Assembly: GCA_029558535.1 (NCBI GenBank)
Contig: JAKQEK010000453.1
Location: 1-64,000, forward strand
DNA length: 64,000 bases
From: Bacteroidota bacterium
GTDB lineage: Bacteria > Bacteroidota > Bacteroidia > Bacteroidales > ML635J-15
Direction of reading: 5' to 3'
In this document: in pieces, positions 19,709-47,850 of the stretch
Position numbering within the stretch: position 1 is the stretch's first letter
Layout: the number at the start of each line of letters is the position of its first letter
The notes under the pieces: generated by a model
Seen by the model: only the letters and a program-made list of their open reading frames with translations
Databases searched by the model: none
Told to the model about the DNA's origin: nothing
Program-made: the position numbers and the translations under genes

Positions 19709-20694
19709 TGAAAAATGCTTATTTGATATTTTGTTTAATGCTATCGGTACAAATTTGTATTGCTCAGAATTTCCCTGAAGGGACAAATGCAATACACAAA
19801 GATTCGTCTATCATAGTTTCATGGGCAATATCTGCTAATGTTGAACGTGGGTATATAAACATTGCAGATACTGCCTTTACATATACCGAAAGCGGAACAA
19901 CTTCAAATTACGCATGGAGTGGAACCACAGAAAATGTATTTGGTAAGGCAGACGGACAATTCATAAGCCTTGGAGACGGGGGGATGATTACTTTAGAGTT
20001 TGAACATTCAATTTTTGATGGTCAGGGTTATGATTTTGCAGTATTTGAAAATGCACTATTCTCTCCTCCGAGTCAGACAATTAATGCATTTGTTGAACTC
20101 GCTTTTGTTGAAGTCAGCAGTGATGGAATAAACTTCGAAAGATTTCCTTCTGTTTCTTCATGTCAATATGACCAACAAATTAATGCCTTTGCTACAGTTG
20201 AATGGAATTTATTTGAAAATTTTGCCGGAATTTATCCTGTATTCTATGGAGTACCTTTCGACCTAAATGATATTGAAGGAAGTATTGTCAACAAAAATCA
20301 TATTACTCATATACGATTAGTAGATGTAGTTGGTAGTATTAATCCAGAATATGCCAACTATGATTCAGAAGGAAATATTGTTAATGATGCTTGGCCTACG
20401 CCATTTGCAACATGTGGATTTGATTGCGATGCGGTTGGCGTAATAAATACAACCCAAGATGTTTCGGATCTGAGTTTTTCAGAGTTTTCGTTATATCCAA
20501 ATCCTGCGAAAGATTTTATAATTCTGACAACTGCATTTGATTTCGATTTTATTATTGCTGACCTATCTGGTAGAATAATAAAAGAAATAAGTTGTAAAAA
20601 TGGTAATACAATTATTGACATTTCGGACCTCAACTCTGGTATTTATTTATTAGTCAATAAAATTAAAACACAAAAATTTATAAAACTTGATTAA
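19708..20694 (+). CDS. T9SS-exported cell-surface protein of the B12 operon
   Basis: A 328-residue protein with a signal peptide (about 1-19, cleavage at C-I-A-Q). The globular domain has ISLGDGGMITLEFEHSIFDG, DFAVFENALF, VELAFVEVSSDGINFERFPS and ITHIRLVDVVG, a beta-rich family of predicted surface proteins found in many Bacteroidota and other phyla. AWPTPFATCGFDCDAVGVIN closes the domain (near 236-255). A type A T9SS sorting domain begins at F-S-L-Y-P-N-P-A and ends at residue 328. Its biochemical function is not established. Being under the cobalamin riboswitch, between the DUF4465-like protein and BtuB, suggests corrinoid binding or capture at the surface. It overlaps btuB by 8 bases. Confidence 0.8.
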   Translation: MKNAYLIFCLMLSVQICIAQNFPEGTNAIHKDSSIIVSWAISANVERGYINIADTAFTYTESGTTSNYAWSGTTENVFGKADGQFISLGDGGMITLEFEHSIFDGQGYDFAVFENALFSPPSQTINAFVELAFVEVSSDGINFERFPSVSSCQYDQQINAFATVEWNLFENFAGIYPVFYGVPFDLNDIEGSIVNKNHITHIRLVDVVGSINPEYANYDSEGNIVNDAWPTPFATCGFDCDAVGVINTTQDVSDLSFSEFSLYPNPAKDFIILTTAFDFDFIIADLSGRIIKEISCKNGNTIIDISDLNSGIYLLVNKIKTQKFIKLD

Positions 20695-22654
20695 AACTTT
20701 TAAAAATATAATCTTGTTTGTTTTATTTCCAATATGTGGATTTACTCAGGACATTTATTTCCCTGACAGCATAAGAGTTTTTGATGAGATTTGCATACTT
20801 GCTAAAAAAGACATTAATCAATCCGGAGTAAAAATAATAAAAATAGATTCCCTGATTATTGAAAATAAAATTCTAAGTGATTTATCAACCTTATTATCTG
20901 AAAACAGTCCGGTTTTTATAAAATCATATGGAAAAGGTTCTTTATCTACCGCTTCTTTTCGGGGTACGAATGCCTCTCATACAAAAGTTAGCTGGAATAA
21001 TGTAAGTTTGAATTCACCAATGCTTGGCATGGTTGACATGTCGCAAATTCCGGTTGCAATTGCCGACAATATTATTTTGTATCATGGATCAGCTTCATTG
21101 AGTAAAAATTCTAACGCTATTGGTGGATTGATTGAATTAAATACTCTGCCAGTATGGAAAAAAGGATTTAGGGGTGAATTTGCAAGCTCAGTGGGAAGTT
21201 TTTCGACTTACGACAATCAGCTTAAATTAAATATAGGAAATAAAACAATTCAATCTGTTACAAAGATTTACAAAAGTTCTTCTGACAACAACTTCCCATT
21301 TTACAATTATGATATCACAAATAGCAGTATAGAATTTCGCCAAAATGCCGATTATACTAAAAAAGGTTTTGTTCAAGAATTATTTTTTAGAACAAGTGAA
21401 AAAAGCATTTTATCTTTTAAGGGTTGGTATCAGCAATCAAGCCGTGGCGTTCCCGGACTTACAACAAATGAAGTTGGTATTAATAGTATTATAAATAGGC
21501 AAAACGGTGATCATGTTGTTTATTCTGCCGAATATACTTGGTACGGCAATAAATCAAAAATTGAATTCACTCATGGTGGGAACTACCAGAACTTCGATTA
21601 TAAAAGCGAGAATTATATAAATGGTTTAGGCTATCTCAAAGTAGTTGCTGCAACAAGTCGCTCTTTTTCAACATATAACTCATTGTCTAACAAATATAAG
21701 ATAACTGACAAAACGGAAATTACAGGTCGTTTAAATTACAATTATCATAATGTAAATTCACTAGAACAAATTTATAATGAGACTTATGATACAACAAGGC
21801 AAGAAGGAGGTATTATATTATCACTGTTTACCGGTGAAATAAAAGATTTTCGTTTAGGGGTTCTGTTAAGACAAGATTTTTATGATTTAAAACTAAGTCC
21901 ATTCATTCCATCAGTTTTTGCTGAGTACTATTTGAACCAGAATTTTATTATTAAAGCATCATGTGCAAGAAATTACAATTTACCCGGACTTAACGACCTG
22001 TATTTTTCTCCGGGAGGGAATCCTGATTTAAAACCTGAAAAAGGATATAGTATTGATGGAGGAATTCAAAACCTGATAAAAAAAGACAGAATTGCAATTC
22101 AATCAGAAATCAGTATAAACTACAGTAGTATTACTGATTGGATTATGTGGAGACCAACCTCTATGGGTTACTGGACTCCCGCAAATGTTGACAAAGTAAC
22201 AGCCTACGGAGCAGACTGTAATTTAAACTTAAAGTATCTGATTTCTGATTTTTATTTTTCGCATAACGCCAATTATGCATACACAAAATCACAAAATAAA
22301 ACTCAGTCAGATATAAATAATGACAACTCAGCCGGTAAACAATTACCATATATTCCGTTACATTCCGCAAATGTATTTTCACGTGTTGAATACCACAAGT
22401 TTTACATTTCTTACCAATGGAATTACTACAGCGAAAGACATACAAGCTCTGCAGCAGAACCGGGAGTCTTAGTAAGCATCTATCCGTATTTTATGAATGA
22501 CATGGCTGTGGGGAAAATTTTTGAAATGAAAAACTTCAAGCTTGATTTGAATATAAGGGTTTTCAATATATTTAATGAATCATACAGATCGATTTTGTGG
22601 CAACCAATGCCAGGAAGAAATTATGGTGTGCAATTATTAATAAAATTCAAATAA
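20687..22654 (+). CDS. btuB: TonB-dependent outer-membrane receptor, BtuB type
   Basis: A 655-residue outer-membrane receptor. After a signal peptide (about 1-20) comes the plug domain (about 50-155) with FIKSYGKGSLSTASFRGTNA and the GSASLSKNSNAIGGLIELNT ending, then a 22-strand type barrel ending in YGVQLLIKFK with a terminal aromatic-rich beta signal. It would move cobalamin across the outer membrane with TonB-ExbBD energy, which is encoded elsewhere. The substrate is assigned from the cobalamin riboswitch 2.3 kb upstream on the same transcript and the BtuG-like lipoprotein gene that follows. No carboxypeptidase-regulatory-like extension of the SusC type is present, so this is a BtuB-size receptor. 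Confidence 0.88.
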   Translation: MIKTFKNIILFVLFPICGFTQDIYFPDSIRVFDEICILAKKDINQSGVKIIKIDSLIIENKILSDLSTLLSENSPVFIKSYGKGSLSTASFRGTNASHTKVSWNNVSLNSPMLGMVDMSQIPVAIADNIILYHGSASLSKNSNAIGGLIELNTLPVWKKGFRGEFASSVGSFSTYDNQLKLNIGNKTIQSVTKIYKSSSDNNFPFYNYDITNSSIEFRQNADYTKKGFVQELFFRTSEKSILSFKGWYQQSSRGVPGLTTNEVGINSIINRQNGDHVVYSAEYTWYGNKSKIEFTHGGNYQNFDYKSENYINGLGYLKVVAATSRSFSTYNSLSNKYKITDKTEITGRLNYNYHNVNSLEQIYNETYDTTRQEGGIILSLFTGEIKDFRLGVLLRQDFYDLKLSPFIPSVFAEYYLNQNFIIKASCARNYNLPGLNDLYFSPGGNPDLKPEKGYSIDGGIQNLIKKDRIAIQSEISINYSSITDWIMWRPTSMGYWTPANVDKVTAYGADCNLNLKYLISDFYFSHNANYAYTKSQNKTQSDINNDNSAGKQLPYIPLHSANVFSRVEYHKFYISYQWNYYSERHTSSAAEPGVLVSIYPYFMNDMAVGKIFEMKNFKLDLNIRVFNIFNESYRSILWQPMPGRNYGVQLLIKFK

Positions 22655-44414: not shown

Positions 44415-45158
44415 TTATTCAAAGAATTTATCCTTTCCCCAATTGGTGGGATTATTGGTTATGTAATTTCTGATTCTTGATAAGGAATAATCTGTGTGGA
44501 CAATTTTATCATTAAAACTTCGCTGCCACAATTTTTTGTTAAACCGTTTCCAACCGAATTGTTTTACGCCACGAATGTATTCGTTGGTTGTCATTGTTTT
44601 AAACCAATCCATTACATCGGAAATTGATGCGCCGTAAATTATGTTTTGCATTCCATATTGTGATAGGGGCATTTTGTGGTCGTTGTTTTCATCAATGGTA
44701 CACCCACGTTTTTCATCGTCGTCAATTTTGTCATTGGCGAAATATTGGTTTTCGTCAACGGGACGCCCACGAAGGGACGTCCCTTCGTGGGCGTCCCGTT
44801 GAAATGTATCATTTGAATTGATATTTTCATTTTTAAATGTATCGTGGGCTATTAATACATTTTCAATTATACAATGCATGTGATTCGGCATTATGATCAT
44901 TTCGTGGCACCTTTTATCGGGATATTTGTTTACCAATTCAAAATACCATTTTTCGACCATTTTGCCAGCGTCGTTCAAAATCATTTTCCCTTTTTCAATG
45001 TTACCAAAAAAACATTCACGATTTTGGCAACATATTGTAAGGAAATAATATCCTACAGTGGAATAATCATAACCTTTAAGGCGTAGTACCTTCCTATTGT
45101 GTATACCTGATTTATTTTCCAATTTCTTTATTTTTGGGTTAAAAAATTTTAAAATCAA
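44415..45158 (-). CDS. REP-associated tyrosine transposase (RAYT, IS200-like fold)
   Basis: A 247-residue Y1-type transposase. Family features are the N-terminal LRLKGYDYSTVGYYFLTICC, the metal-binding His-x-His in MIIMPNHMHCIIE near 87-99, and the C-terminal SISDVMDWFKTMTTNEYIRG with the catalytic tyrosine candidate near 202, then W-x-R-S-F-N-D-K-I-V. RAYTs process hairpin DNA repeats (REPs) in trans and are normally solitary. Between the HxH motif and the tyrosine helix lies a low-complexity acidic linker (about 100-160) partly encoded by a GC-rich perfect palindrome (44755-44802). The frame is intact, so the gene may be active. The base composition of the linker differs from the surroundings. 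It stands alone, converging on the glycosyltransferase gene. Confidence 0.88.
   Translation of the reverse strand: MILKFFNPKIKKLENKSGIHNRKVLRLKGYDYSTVGYYFLTICCQNRECFFGNIEKGKMILNDAGKMVEKWYFELVNKYPDKRCHEMIIMPNHMHCIIENVLIAHDTFKNENINSNDTFQRDAHEGTSLRGRPVDENQYFANDKIDDDEKRGCTIDENNDHKMPLSQYGMQNIIYGASISDVMDWFKTMTTNEYIRGVKQFGWKRFNKKLWQRSFNDKIVHTDYSLSRIRNYITNNPTNWGKDKFFE
44684..44708. repeat. Decayed direct copy of the palindrome's right flank
   Basis: These 25 bases match 44747-44771 at 20 positions, with an offset of 63 bases (21 codons). In the protein they give the paired phrases R-G-C-T-I-D-E-N and R-G-R-P-V-D-E-N. Confidence 0.6.
44755..44802. repeat. Perfect GC-rich 48-base palindrome inside the RAYT gene
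   Basis: Each of the 24 bases on the left is complementary to its partner on the right, with the centre between 44778 and 44779 (GGGAC|GTCCC at the core). The sequence is strongly GC-rich inside AT-rich DNA. It covers 16 codons of the RAYT linker without breaking the frame, encoding approximately QRDAHEGTSLRGRPVD. The hairpin form resembles a REP unit, the substrate of RAYT enzymes. Confidence 0.9.
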
Positions 45159-45313: not shown

Positions 45314-45321
45314 TATATTTG
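45314..45321 (+). promoter_or_regulatory. TAnnTTTG promoter box for the MEMO-AMMECR1-radical SAM gene
   Basis: TATATTTG is an exact -7 box match, 18 bases before ATG 45340. It supports translation from that ATG, which includes the signal-peptide-like segment. No clear -33 element is seen. Confidence 0.55.
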
Positions 45322-45339: not shown

Positions 45340-47850
45340 ATGCTGAATATTAAAACGAGAATATTAAATCTGTGCATTGTGGCAATATTGTTATTGTCGT
45401 CAAACTTTTTAATGTTTTCCCAATCTTCAAAAACCGATAGCCTTATGAATCGCAAACCTGCAGTAGCCGGGAAATTTTATTCCGGATCAAAAGAAACGCT
45501 AACAAATGATTTGATTCATCTTTTTGCACCTGCTAAGCCAAGAAATTCAGACGCTGTTGCAGTGATAAGTCCACATGCAGGATATGTATTTAGCGGTGAG
45601 GTGGCAGCTTCTGCAATAAATCAAATAAATCCGGATAAAACATATAAAAATATTTTTATTATTGCCTCAAGTCATACAACATATTTTGAGGGGGCGTCCA
45701 TTTATAATATAGGTAATTACGAAACACTACTGGGAGAAGTAAAAGTAAACACTGAATTATGTAACGAACTAATTAAAAACAATTCAGTATTTTCATATAT
45801 TCCCGAAGCACACAAATCTGAACATAGTATCGAAGTACAATTGCCATTTTTGCAATTTCACTTAAATAATGATTTTCAAATAGTACCTGTCATTTTAGGA
45901 AGTGATGGGGCTACAACAGCAAAAGAAATTGCAAGTATTTTGAAACCATATTTTACAGAAGAAAATATTTTTATTGTATCAACAGATTTTTCACATTATC
46001 CTACTTATGAGGATGCTCTTAAAGCTGACAAATTAACTGCTGATGCAATATGCAGCGGCAAACCCGATTCTTTGATCAATGTTATAAATCAGAAACAGAA
46101 AATCAGTAATCTTGCAACATACTGCTGTGCATGGCCTGCAGTTTTAACACTTATGTACATGGCACAAAATGATTATGAATATAATCAAATACAATATATA
46201 AATTCGGGCGATTCTCAATATGGTGATCATGACAGGGTTGTAGGCTACTGGTCTATTTCACTCACACAAAAAAATCAATCAACTTATACATTAAGTGATG
46301 AAGAAAAGATCAGCCTTCTAAAACTTGCAAGACTTACAGTTGAGACAAGGGTTATAGAAAACAAAAAACCTGATATTTCTGATTTTACATTTACTGACAA
46401 CCTGAATGAACACTGCGGTGCATTTGTAACCTTGCACAAAAATTCAAATCTACGTGGCTGTATCGGTCGTTTTGAGCCTGATATCCCGCTTTATCAGGTT
46501 GTTGTCGAAATGGCTGTTTCTGCTGCAATAAATGATTATCGCTTTTCTCCGGTAAAAAAAGACGAATTAGATGAAATAGACATTGAAATATCTGTTCTGA
46601 CTCCAATGGTTAAAATTGATTCAGTACAACAAATTGTTCTGGGAAAACATGGCATATATATCAGTAAAGGCAGTCGTGGAGGGACGTTCTTACCACAGGT
46701 TGCTACAGAAACAGGCTGGACCCTGGAAGAATTTCTCGGGCACTGCTCACGCGACAAAGCCGGAATAGGTTATGACGGATGGAAAGATGCTGATATATAT
46801 ATTTATGAAGCAATAATTTTTTCTGAAAAAGAGTTTGGTCTATTTCCGAAAAAAAAAACTAAATACTACGAAAAGCTAGACAACAACAAAGTAAAATGCA
46901 CACTTTGTCCTCATGCTTGCGTTTTGGGTGAAGGGCAAACCGGATTGTGTAATGCACGTAAAAATTCAAACGGAGAATTAGTTTCACTGACATACGGCAG
47001 ACCTGTAGCAATTCATATTGACCCCGTAGAAAAAAAGCCACTATATCATTTTCTACCAGGCAGTACAACATTATCGTTTGGCACAGCCGGATGTAACCTG
47101 CATTGTAAAAATTGTCAGAATTCGAGCATTTCACAGGGGAATCCCGAAAAAATAGAATATATTGAAGCAACACCTGAACAAATTGTAAAGACTGCTATTA
47201 AAAATAATTGCAAGTCAATATCATATACATATACAGAACCTACTGTTTTTTATGAATACATGCTTGAAACGGCAAAGTTATCACATGAGGCAGGACTTAA
47301 AAATATTATAGTTTCAAATGGATATATAAATCAAGAACCCCTTCTCGAACTGATCCCATATATTGATGCTGCAAATATTGATCTTAAATGTTTTAATGAC
47401 TCCATTTATAAAGACATTACAACAGGTAGTTTGCAACCGGTATTAAACACTCTTATTACATTAAAAGACAACGGAGTTTGGCTTGAAATAACAAATCTTG
47501 TTATTCCCGAACACACCGACAATATGGAAATGATATCACAAATGTGTGATTGGTTGATTGAAAATGGTTTTGAAGATGTCCCACTTCATTTCAGCAGATT
47601 TTTCCCTTCATATAAAATGATGGATTTAAAACCCACTAGTATTGAAACTGTTGAAACGGCTGCCGGAATTGCGAAATCAAAAGGGATGAAATATGTTTAT
47701 CTTGGTAATGTTCATGGCACTGAAACCAATACTATTTGCCCCTATTGTGGAGAAAAGATAATTACACGTAACGGATATCAAGTAAGCCTTAAAGATTTCG
47801 CAGGAAAATGTCCCAAATGTGGAAAATATATAAATGGGAAATGGGAATAG
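45340..47850 (+). CDS. MEMO-AMMECR1-radical SAM fusion protein (AmmeMemoRadiSam system in one chain)
   Basis: An 836-residue protein combining three families usually encoded separately. Residues about 37-308 are MEMO-like (NRKPAVAGKFYSG, SPHAGYVFSG, ASSHTTYFEG, EHSIEVQLPFLQ and STDFSHYP supply the metal-site histidines; CCAWPA supplies the conserved Cys). Residues about 320-505 are AMMECR1-like (LRGCIGRFEPD at 371 onward, GGTFLPQVA). Residues about 510-836 are a PflA-like radical SAM enzyme with the cluster cysteines 585, 589 and 592 (C-N-L-H-C-K-N-C). Further cysteines precede it (CTLCPHACVLGEGQTGLC), and a C-terminal zinc ribbon (CPYC, CPKC) follows. The activity of this system is not established. 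Residues 1-28 resemble a Sec signal peptide, odd for an iron-sulfur radical enzyme. An internal Met37 could give a cytosolic form. Confidence 0.9.
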   Translation: MLNIKTRILNLCIVAILLLSSNFLMFSQSSKTDSLMNRKPAVAGKFYSGSKETLTNDLIHLFAPAKPRNSDAVAVISPHAGYVFSGEVAASAINQINPDKTYKNIFIIASSHTTYFEGASIYNIGNYETLLGEVKVNTELCNELIKNNSVFSYIPEAHKSEHSIEVQLPFLQFHLNNDFQIVPVILGSDGATTAKEIASILKPYFTEENIFIVSTDFSHYPTYEDALKADKLTADAICSGKPDSLINVINQKQKISNLATYCCAWPAVLTLMYMAQNDYEYNQIQYINSGDSQYGDHDRVVGYWSISLTQKNQSTYTLSDEEKISLLKLARLTVETRVIENKKPDISDFTFTDNLNEHCGAFVTLHKNSNLRGCIGRFEPDIPLYQVVVEMAVSAAINDYRFSPVKKDELDEIDIEISVLTPMVKIDSVQQIVLGKHGIYISKGSRGGTFLPQVATETGWTLEEFLGHCSRDKAGIGYDGWKDADIYIYEAIIFSEKEFGLFPKKKTKYYEKLDNNKVKCTLCPHACVLGEGQTGLCNARKNSNGELVSLTYGRPVAIHIDPVEKKPLYHFLPGSTTLSFGTAGCNLHCKNCQNSSISQGNPEKIEYIEATPEQIVKTAIKNNCKSISYTYTEPTVFYEYMLETAKLSHEAGLKNIIVSNGYINQEPLLELIPYIDAANIDLKCFNDSIYKDITTGSLQPVLNTLITLKDNGVWLEITNLVIPEHTDNMEMISQMCDWLIENGFEDVPLHFSRFFPSYKMMDLKPTSIETVETAAGIAKSKGMKYVYLGNVHGTETNTICPYCGEKIITRNGYQVSLKDFAGKCPKCGKYINGKWE

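Follow-up and report, generated by a model that had tools for sequence, protein, structure and literature searches.

How does a single bacterial chain come to hold all three families of the AmmeMemoRadiSam system behind what looks like an export signal, and in which compartment would such a protein work? The question is raised by one open reading frame (ORF) in the window, as the whole 64,000-nucleotide stretch of DNA analysed here is called. A profile search of the 836-aa ORF placed three NCBIfam families, each over its cut-off, in the one chain, as the earlier note had proposed, and the Pfam families Memo, AMMECR1 and Radical_SAM each scored above the gathering score. The parts of the ORF are as follows.

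45340..47850, + strand: MEMO-AMMECR1-radical SAM fusion ORF, 836 aa, ATG to stop without an internal stop
45451..46260, + strand: MEMO domain, residues 38-307 (TIGR04336, 231.9 bits against a cut-off of 26)
46315..46821, + strand: AMMECR1 domain, residues 326-494 (TIGR04335, 169.6 bits against a cut-off of 99)
46858..47847, + strand: radical SAM domain, residues 507-836 (TIGR04337, 389.4 bits against a cut-off of 220)
46897..46950, + strand: four-Cys motif ahead of the radical SAM core (C520, C523, C527, C537)
47092..47115, + strand: radical SAM cluster motif CxxxCxxC (C585/C589/C592)
47737..47820, + strand: two-pair Cys motif at the C-terminus (C800, C803, C824, C827)

The key motifs named earlier for each domain are also present: the histidines of MEMO, among motif residues H79 (in PHAGY), H112, D216/H219 and C263; LRGCIG of AMMECR1 at residues 371-376; and the C585-x3-C589-x2-C592 cluster motif. 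The cysteines of the four-Cys motif are kept in 60/60 Tat-type and 48/48 other relatives. An AlphaFold model is confident for the domains (mean pLDDT 87.7) and not for their mutual placement (pTM 0.56). The best Foldseek matches of its parts are human MEMO1 (7kq8), an archaeal AMMECR1-family protein (1zq7) and pyruvate formate-lyase (PFL) activase (3cb8). C263 aligns with the Cys of a TICG stretch in human MEMO1; by count this Cys is C244, named in the title of PDB entry 7m8h (C244S).

The N-terminus bears on the question of compartment through two features.

45340..45420, + strand: predicted Sec signal peptide, codons 1-27, with an expected cut before Gln28, called from hydrophobicity, the S/Q pattern and relatives
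45445..45447, + strand: Met36, the alternative start proposed earlier

The Sec-type N-terminus described in the earlier note is upheld by a hydrophobic segment and by the pattern LMFS/Q28, in which the slash marks the predicted cut. According to the part of PMC10653852 that was available, most substrates of Bacteroidetes signal peptidase I expose Gln after the cut, and the ORF has Gln at the position which this Q-rule predicts. As judged by eye, 13 of 18 ORFs in the window whose N-terminus is hydrophobic have the S/Q pattern, the fusion among them, and Gln lies near the expected cut in all 14 relatives with the fusion's type of signal. No Tat motif of the form [KR]R-x-F-[LI]-K is found in residues 1-36. 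The promoter box thought to support the upstream start had to be set aside: the TATATTTG box at 45314-45321 is one of 117 matches to TANNTTTG, against 103.9 +/- 10 expected, so the motif is not enriched.

A full three-domain fusion is rare. In a survey of the order 151 of 295 genomes matched and, among the matches listed, only the window's own spans three domains; the usual layout among them is a MEMO-AMMECR1 protein of about 500 aa with a separate radical SAM ORF. No other three-way fusion was seen among the matches listed for the phylum (95 of 395 genomes matching) or for the phylum of the Desulfobacteraceae genome of locus L198 (287 of 297 matching), nor in the named loci, taken as the best 80 of 590. 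A full fusion should score at the top of such lists. As to how many genomes carry the full fusion, which the earlier note had raised, the window's protein is thus the sole case among those matches. A long open frame in G238 was considered as a second fusion and rejected, being two genes with another between them. Long open frames of about 610-1059 aa with radical SAM matches were noted in G930, G843, G895, G875, G870, G450, G647 and G423; each could be a further fusion or a frame that is open by chance.

The window's genome (G000) has a single match to the fused protein, and in the order survey its three genus mates have none. It measures 5.8 Mb in 513 contigs and is 88% complete; the three genus mates drawn are 3.2-3.5 Mb. 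The neighbouring UvrB gene is single-copy and, in a comparison with 21 other genomes, most resembles that of the three genus mates, so the binning of the contig is probably correct. No TatC turned up in this 88% complete genome or in the three genus mates drawn. Elsewhere in the window, a minus-strand ORF just upstream of the fusion (44415-45158) encodes what we take to resemble REP-associated transposases, and a receptor-like ORF (20684-22654, + strand) stays open far to the 5' side of its first ATG (656 aa in all, 544 aa from the ATG), its true start probably being a codon other than ATG.

The integrity of the chain turns on a feature at the join which the earlier note did not mention.

46849..46858, + strand: A10 homopolymer at the AMMECR1/radical SAM join, on whose length the fusion depends

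This run is the sole homopolymer of at least 10 in the 64 kb window. The window's genome holds 92 overlapping A10 matches in 5.81 Mb, or ~65 tracts when merged by eye, and at this density a tract would lie by chance within ~40 bases of the join about 4 times in 10,000. When run lengths of 8, 9, 11 and 12 A were tried in silico, the gene was split and the first ORF ended at codon 507-514, a size in keeping with the 499-539 aa of the MEMO-AMMECR1 relatives L002-L030; both shifted frames hit a stop within eight codons of the run. The radical SAM ORF would begin at TTG with 8 or 11 A, and would lack any ATG, GTG or TTG with 9 or 12. The fusion may have been made by a change in the run or be a miscount of it, or slippage may read the run both ways. 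The radical SAM part retains no ATG; its start has seemingly disappeared, which a genuine fusion would lead one to expect. Bacterial RNA polymerases are known to slip on tracts of at least nine A, and since the join rests on such a tract, slippage would also release an ordinary MEMO-AMMECR1 protein; this free form, of ~506-513 residues, may coexist with the fused one. The 1:1:1 stoichiometry and the hand-off of substrate put forward in the earlier note are thus conjectural, given this possible free form and the lack of a confident domain placement in the AlphaFold model.

Relatives of the MEMO-AMMECR1 half offer a further view of the N-terminus. A Sec or lipoprotein-type N-terminus was called in 61 of 84 fetched proteins and none in the other 23, using simple patterns of our own rather than a trained predictor, on loci fetched mostly from the best matches of the order survey. 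(One more row, L136, has an in-frame stop; it is included in the 85-row signal and 68-genome counts and left out of the tree, Tat-motif, Gln and 84-row counts.) In a quick tree this half of the fusion falls in a group of 52 rows, 48 of them signal-bearing, with support of 84 for the group and no resolution inside it. The first 35 codons of the fusion match the signal peptides of these relatives in length, in hydrophobicity and in the Gln after the cut. Among the 23 signal-less forms, one of them cut off by a contig end, 20 start within ~20 residues of the domain and have no such segment.

The radical SAM relatives carry signals of another, Tat-like type. A strict Tat pattern, [KR]R-x-F-[ILMVF]-[KRQN] followed by a hydrophobic stretch, was found in 59 of the 68 relatives with an N-terminal extension (at least 20 residues), against 0.018 expected from residue shuffles; the controls gave 0/84 for MEMO-AMMECR1, 0/40 for short radical SAM proteins and 1/235 for other ORFs. 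Across the aligned N-termini conservation is 90% or higher at the motif's R and F, compared with a mean column identity of 18%. By a looser pattern the pair opens with K in 54/61, giving KR rather than RR; RR prevails, as judged by eye, in the named loci of Desulfobacterota, Altiarchaeota, Aenigmatarchaeota and others. The curated Tat models TIGR01409 and PF10518 matched 12 and 10 of 67 of these N-termini at E up to 1, weakly (best E 0.0045 and 0.0015); each was the most frequent family in its library, and neither is among the 25 families listed for 83 MEMO-AMMECR1 N-termini. The 60 Tat-type rows retain all eleven Cys, those of the radical SAM motif among them, bar one or two gaps, and these enzymes are therefore not decayed copies.

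Other phyla, some of them archaeal, likewise have radical SAM proteins that bear signals. Among the named loci, which are the best 80 of 590 retrieved with a query alignment in which Tat-type members were present, 26 radical SAM N-termini are Tat-type, 11 are otherwise hydrophobic (the doubtful L162, L189, L226 and L235 among them) and 43 have neither; separate radical SAM proteins with hydrophobic Sec-type N-termini are found in Omnitrophota (L167, L181, L190, L191). In the survey of the order, radical SAM loci came from the top-scoring matches, so that the lower-scoring and mostly short group is under-sampled. Several arrangements of the genes were seen in passing. In two genomes of one family (G130 and G013; L045:5294-7477 and L055:92-2281) Tat-type and signal-less radical SAM genes lie side by side, near MEMO-AMMECR1 and a spermidine-synthase-like gene. 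Tandem radical SAM copies occur in threes at G038:C75:47954-51474 and in twos at G146:C48:7661-9900, and in two genomes of one family a gene resembling methionine sulfoxide reductase, by eye, follows the Tat-type radical SAM gene (L033:6828-7274, L034:1866-2252).

The radical SAM domain of the fusion has no Tat signal of its own in the translation. Its best match is the Tat-type G071, and the next seven genomes (G171, G249, G044, G013, G130, G155, G267) match it with signal-less copies. A quick and weak tree, which omits two long rows (L109, L137) and keeps only six of those from L138 onwards, places it outside the main Tat group, in a mixed one, so the two halves of the fusion may differ in history. 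Predicted export signals are common on the relatives of both halves. The earlier argument that export of a radical SAM enzyme makes the signal suspect thereby loses its force, and the predicted export signals on the parts in many lineages are a stronger and more surprising point than their union in one chain.

The signals on the two halves tend to go together. Both halves were fetched for 68 genomes: 46 have only the combination of a MEMO-AMMECR1 signal with a Tat signal (45 after a recount of L120, which is Tat by the loose pattern and not Tat on recount), 12 have neither, and the remaining 10 are mixed or hold two copies. The single genome with a Tat signal alone (G058) is represented by a row that is truncated on the 5' side. 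Signal-bearing MEMO-AMMECR1 with signal-less radical SAM is found in 4/68, one resting on L136. In the best 80 of 590 loci, MEMO is also signal-bearing in 17 of 18 cases where a signal-bearing radical SAM protein has MEMO in view; where the radical SAM protein is signal-less, MEMO-AMMECR1 bears a signal in 8 of the 15 loci with MEMO in view, one of them (L199) probably through a misplaced start, and TatC is present in 7 of those 8 genomes. The existence of such pairs means that the halves do not always share a compartment. That Tat loss is the general cause of signal-less radical SAM partners was rejected, since Prevotella and others have TatC. In five loci from Prevotella, Prevotellaceae and Coprenecus (L176, L186, L188, L192, L200), MEMO-AMMECR1 is followed by a short radical SAM protein of 290-307 aa whose match ends near profile position 284, the C-terminal Cys pairs being seemingly absent; MEMO-AMMECR1 there is mostly signal-bearing, with no signal called in L192.

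Two further lines were examined and dropped. A statistical proof of joint evolution is out of reach, as the 2 to 7 independent pairs do not allow sign tests to attain significance, and the enrichment of TatC in Tat-type genomes, ~56/60 by eye against 245/295 overall, is too weak to use. Tat-type genomes without TatC are G052, G098, G154 and G250, three of the four being less than 90% complete.

A third gene often accompanies the signal-bearing pairs. It lies between or beside the two genes and encodes a membrane protein with a spermidine-synthase domain (PF01564). This gene is in view in 40 of the 46 genomes with both signals and in 0/12 with neither; among the named loci (best 80 of 590) it could be seen near 15/26 Tat-type, 4/11 otherwise hydrophobic and 3/43 signal-less radical SAM proteins. 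Counts for the Tat signal, the MEMO signal and this neighbour agree over 66 rows: 46 have both, 12 have neither, and 7 and 1 are mixed, L098 having been assigned manually to the Tat class and L120 to the non-Tat class. A model of the protein (pLDDT 86.9) resembles aminopropyltransferases (1uir). Charges alternate as for a 14-helix protein with its N-terminus inside, seven helices, the domain outside and seven more helices; summed mean K+R is 18.75 for inner and 3.3 for outer loops in 16 proteins, the helix bounds being taken from the model with one added by hand. The spermidine-synthase-like domain is thus predicted to face outside. The neighbour had no match in the window's 88% complete genome, in a search run without a positive control.

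The reading that best accommodates these observations, to which we would give a little under even weight, is that the fusion is a single-chain form of the AmmeMemoRadiSam system, a variant that would work, at least partly, outside the cytoplasm. As the MEMO-AMMECR1 half belongs to a group mostly with Sec signals of the periplasmic or lipoprotein kind, the chain is most likely exported by its own signal peptide, which would carry the whole of it across the inner membrane and be cut before Gln28. Outside, MEMO with its metal-site residues, AMMECR1 and the PFL-activase-like radical SAM domain would act together on a substrate in the envelope. For their chemistry radical SAM enzymes depend on three cytoplasmic things, namely an iron-sulfur cluster, SAM and a source of electrons, and Sec exports unfolded chains. 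With no Tat signal on the radical SAM half, loading of the cluster outside is therefore a problem for this reading; the cluster would have to be loaded although TatC was not found in the host. More tentatively still, a branch of AmmeMemoRadiSam might be wholly extracytoplasmic: its MEMO-AMMECR1 would be periplasmic or a lipoprotein, its radical SAM enzyme would be exported by Tat, and the SAM-family, spermidine-synthase-like domain of its 14-helix neighbour would face outside and might bring in or handle SAM there. The fusion would then be the single-chain form of this branch, exported by Sec in a lineage where no Tat is detectable.

The rare one-chain form is possibly an artefact of one homopolymer. 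An unlikely explanation, though one to be taken seriously, is that the A10 run has been miscounted or carries a passing indel, the locus really consisting of two overlapping genes for an exported MEMO-AMMECR1 protein and a radical SAM protein. The placing of the window's only run of this length at the join, the normal size of MEMO-AMMECR1 at other run lengths and the lack of another three-way fusion among the matches listed in any survey all speak for it. The split versions, however, leave the radical SAM ORF with a TTG start or with no start codon at all, and the ORFs around the other 37 homopolymers of 7-9 inside ORFs of the window look intact by eye. An improbable further reading is that of a real fusion used as a slippery gene, yielding mostly free exported MEMO-AMMECR1 with radical SAM in a minority of fused chains. 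The nearby stops in both shifted frames and the slippage of RNA polymerases on such runs would suit this, but no second fusion is known in which a conserved A run could be sought.

The remaining rivals keep the enzyme inside the cell. The earlier note had suggested that translation might begin at an internal Met, given there as residue 37 and counted on the translation as codon 36. Use of this start, or a segment otherwise unused, would make the protein a cytosolic enzyme like the signal-less forms of the order; these are found for both halves in 12/68 genomes, and the seven genomes next after G071 match the radical SAM half with signal-less copies. Against this, the residues that precede Met36 resemble the signal peptides of MEMO-AMMECR1 relatives, and the signal-less forms mostly start near the domain (20/23), which weakens the internal start and leaves it with only a slim chance. 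A membrane anchor, also raised earlier, would leave the N-terminal helix uncut and tether the enzyme to the membrane on its inner side. AlphaFold does predict a helix at residues 2-24, but K5 and R7 near its start would favour an N-in/C-out orientation, and the S/Q pattern of signal peptidase I substrates, in which the N-terminus ends, argues for cutting; the anchor is accordingly very improbable.

We know of no radical SAM enzyme shown to work outside the cytoplasm. MEMO has reportedly been linked, by Burroughs et al. in 2019, to base and isoprenoid modification. In the excerpts of the open literature searched, no report of an exported radical SAM enzyme or of a three-way fusion was found, and the name AmmeMemoRadiSam appears there in single mentions, none of them about function or naming an activity. 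The available part of PMC7159879 mentions 'Memo-Ammecr1 systems', citing Burroughs et al. 2019, and in that of PMC10924467 radical SAM appears only as a neighbour gene. If export of the system is real, a widespread family with Tat-like signals and intact cluster motifs would open up an extracytoplasmic SAM-radical chemistry, and it would indicate where to seek the substrate of MEMO and AMMECR1, both of which have human homologues. The export question would become testable with standard Tat reporters, and the fused ORF would provide the simplest single-gene form for expression.

Set beside known systems, the fusion holds the same three families as AmmeMemoRadiSam (TIGR04335, TIGR04336, TIGR04337) with the same residues, and differs in being one chain with an export signal; the relatives bear a Tat-like signal on radical SAM and a Sec or lipoprotein-type signal on MEMO-AMMECR1. 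The two-domain MEMO-AMMECR1 proteins of the order share its domain order and signal type, at up to 58% identity, but end after AMMECR1, with radical SAM encoded separately. Human MEMO1 (7kq8, iron-bound; 7l5c, copper-bound; 7m8h, C244S) shares the fold and the Cys position, and has no fused AMMECR1 or radical SAM; the metal site of the fusion is predicted. The membrane neighbour in relatives has the same spermidine-synthase fold as the membrane aminopropyltransferases and MFS_SpdSyn proteins (PRK03612, NF037959), 2 of 4 tested passing the NF037959 cut-off and 0 of 4 that of PRK03612. Spermidine synthase has GGGDGG and DSTDP, which we take to be its catalytic stretches, whereas the neighbour's consensus is SGGxxG and xLPxPxT, so that these stretches are not kept. 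The radical SAM domain of the fusion scored 52.9 bits against the 231.75 of TIGR02493 and 56 against the 250.2 of TIGR04041, well below the level of PFL-type activases. The PFL activating enzyme (3c8f, 3cb8) is the closest solved radical SAM fold and shares CxxxCxxC with the fusion, which, unlike it, has extra Cys motifs at both ends of the radical SAM domain.
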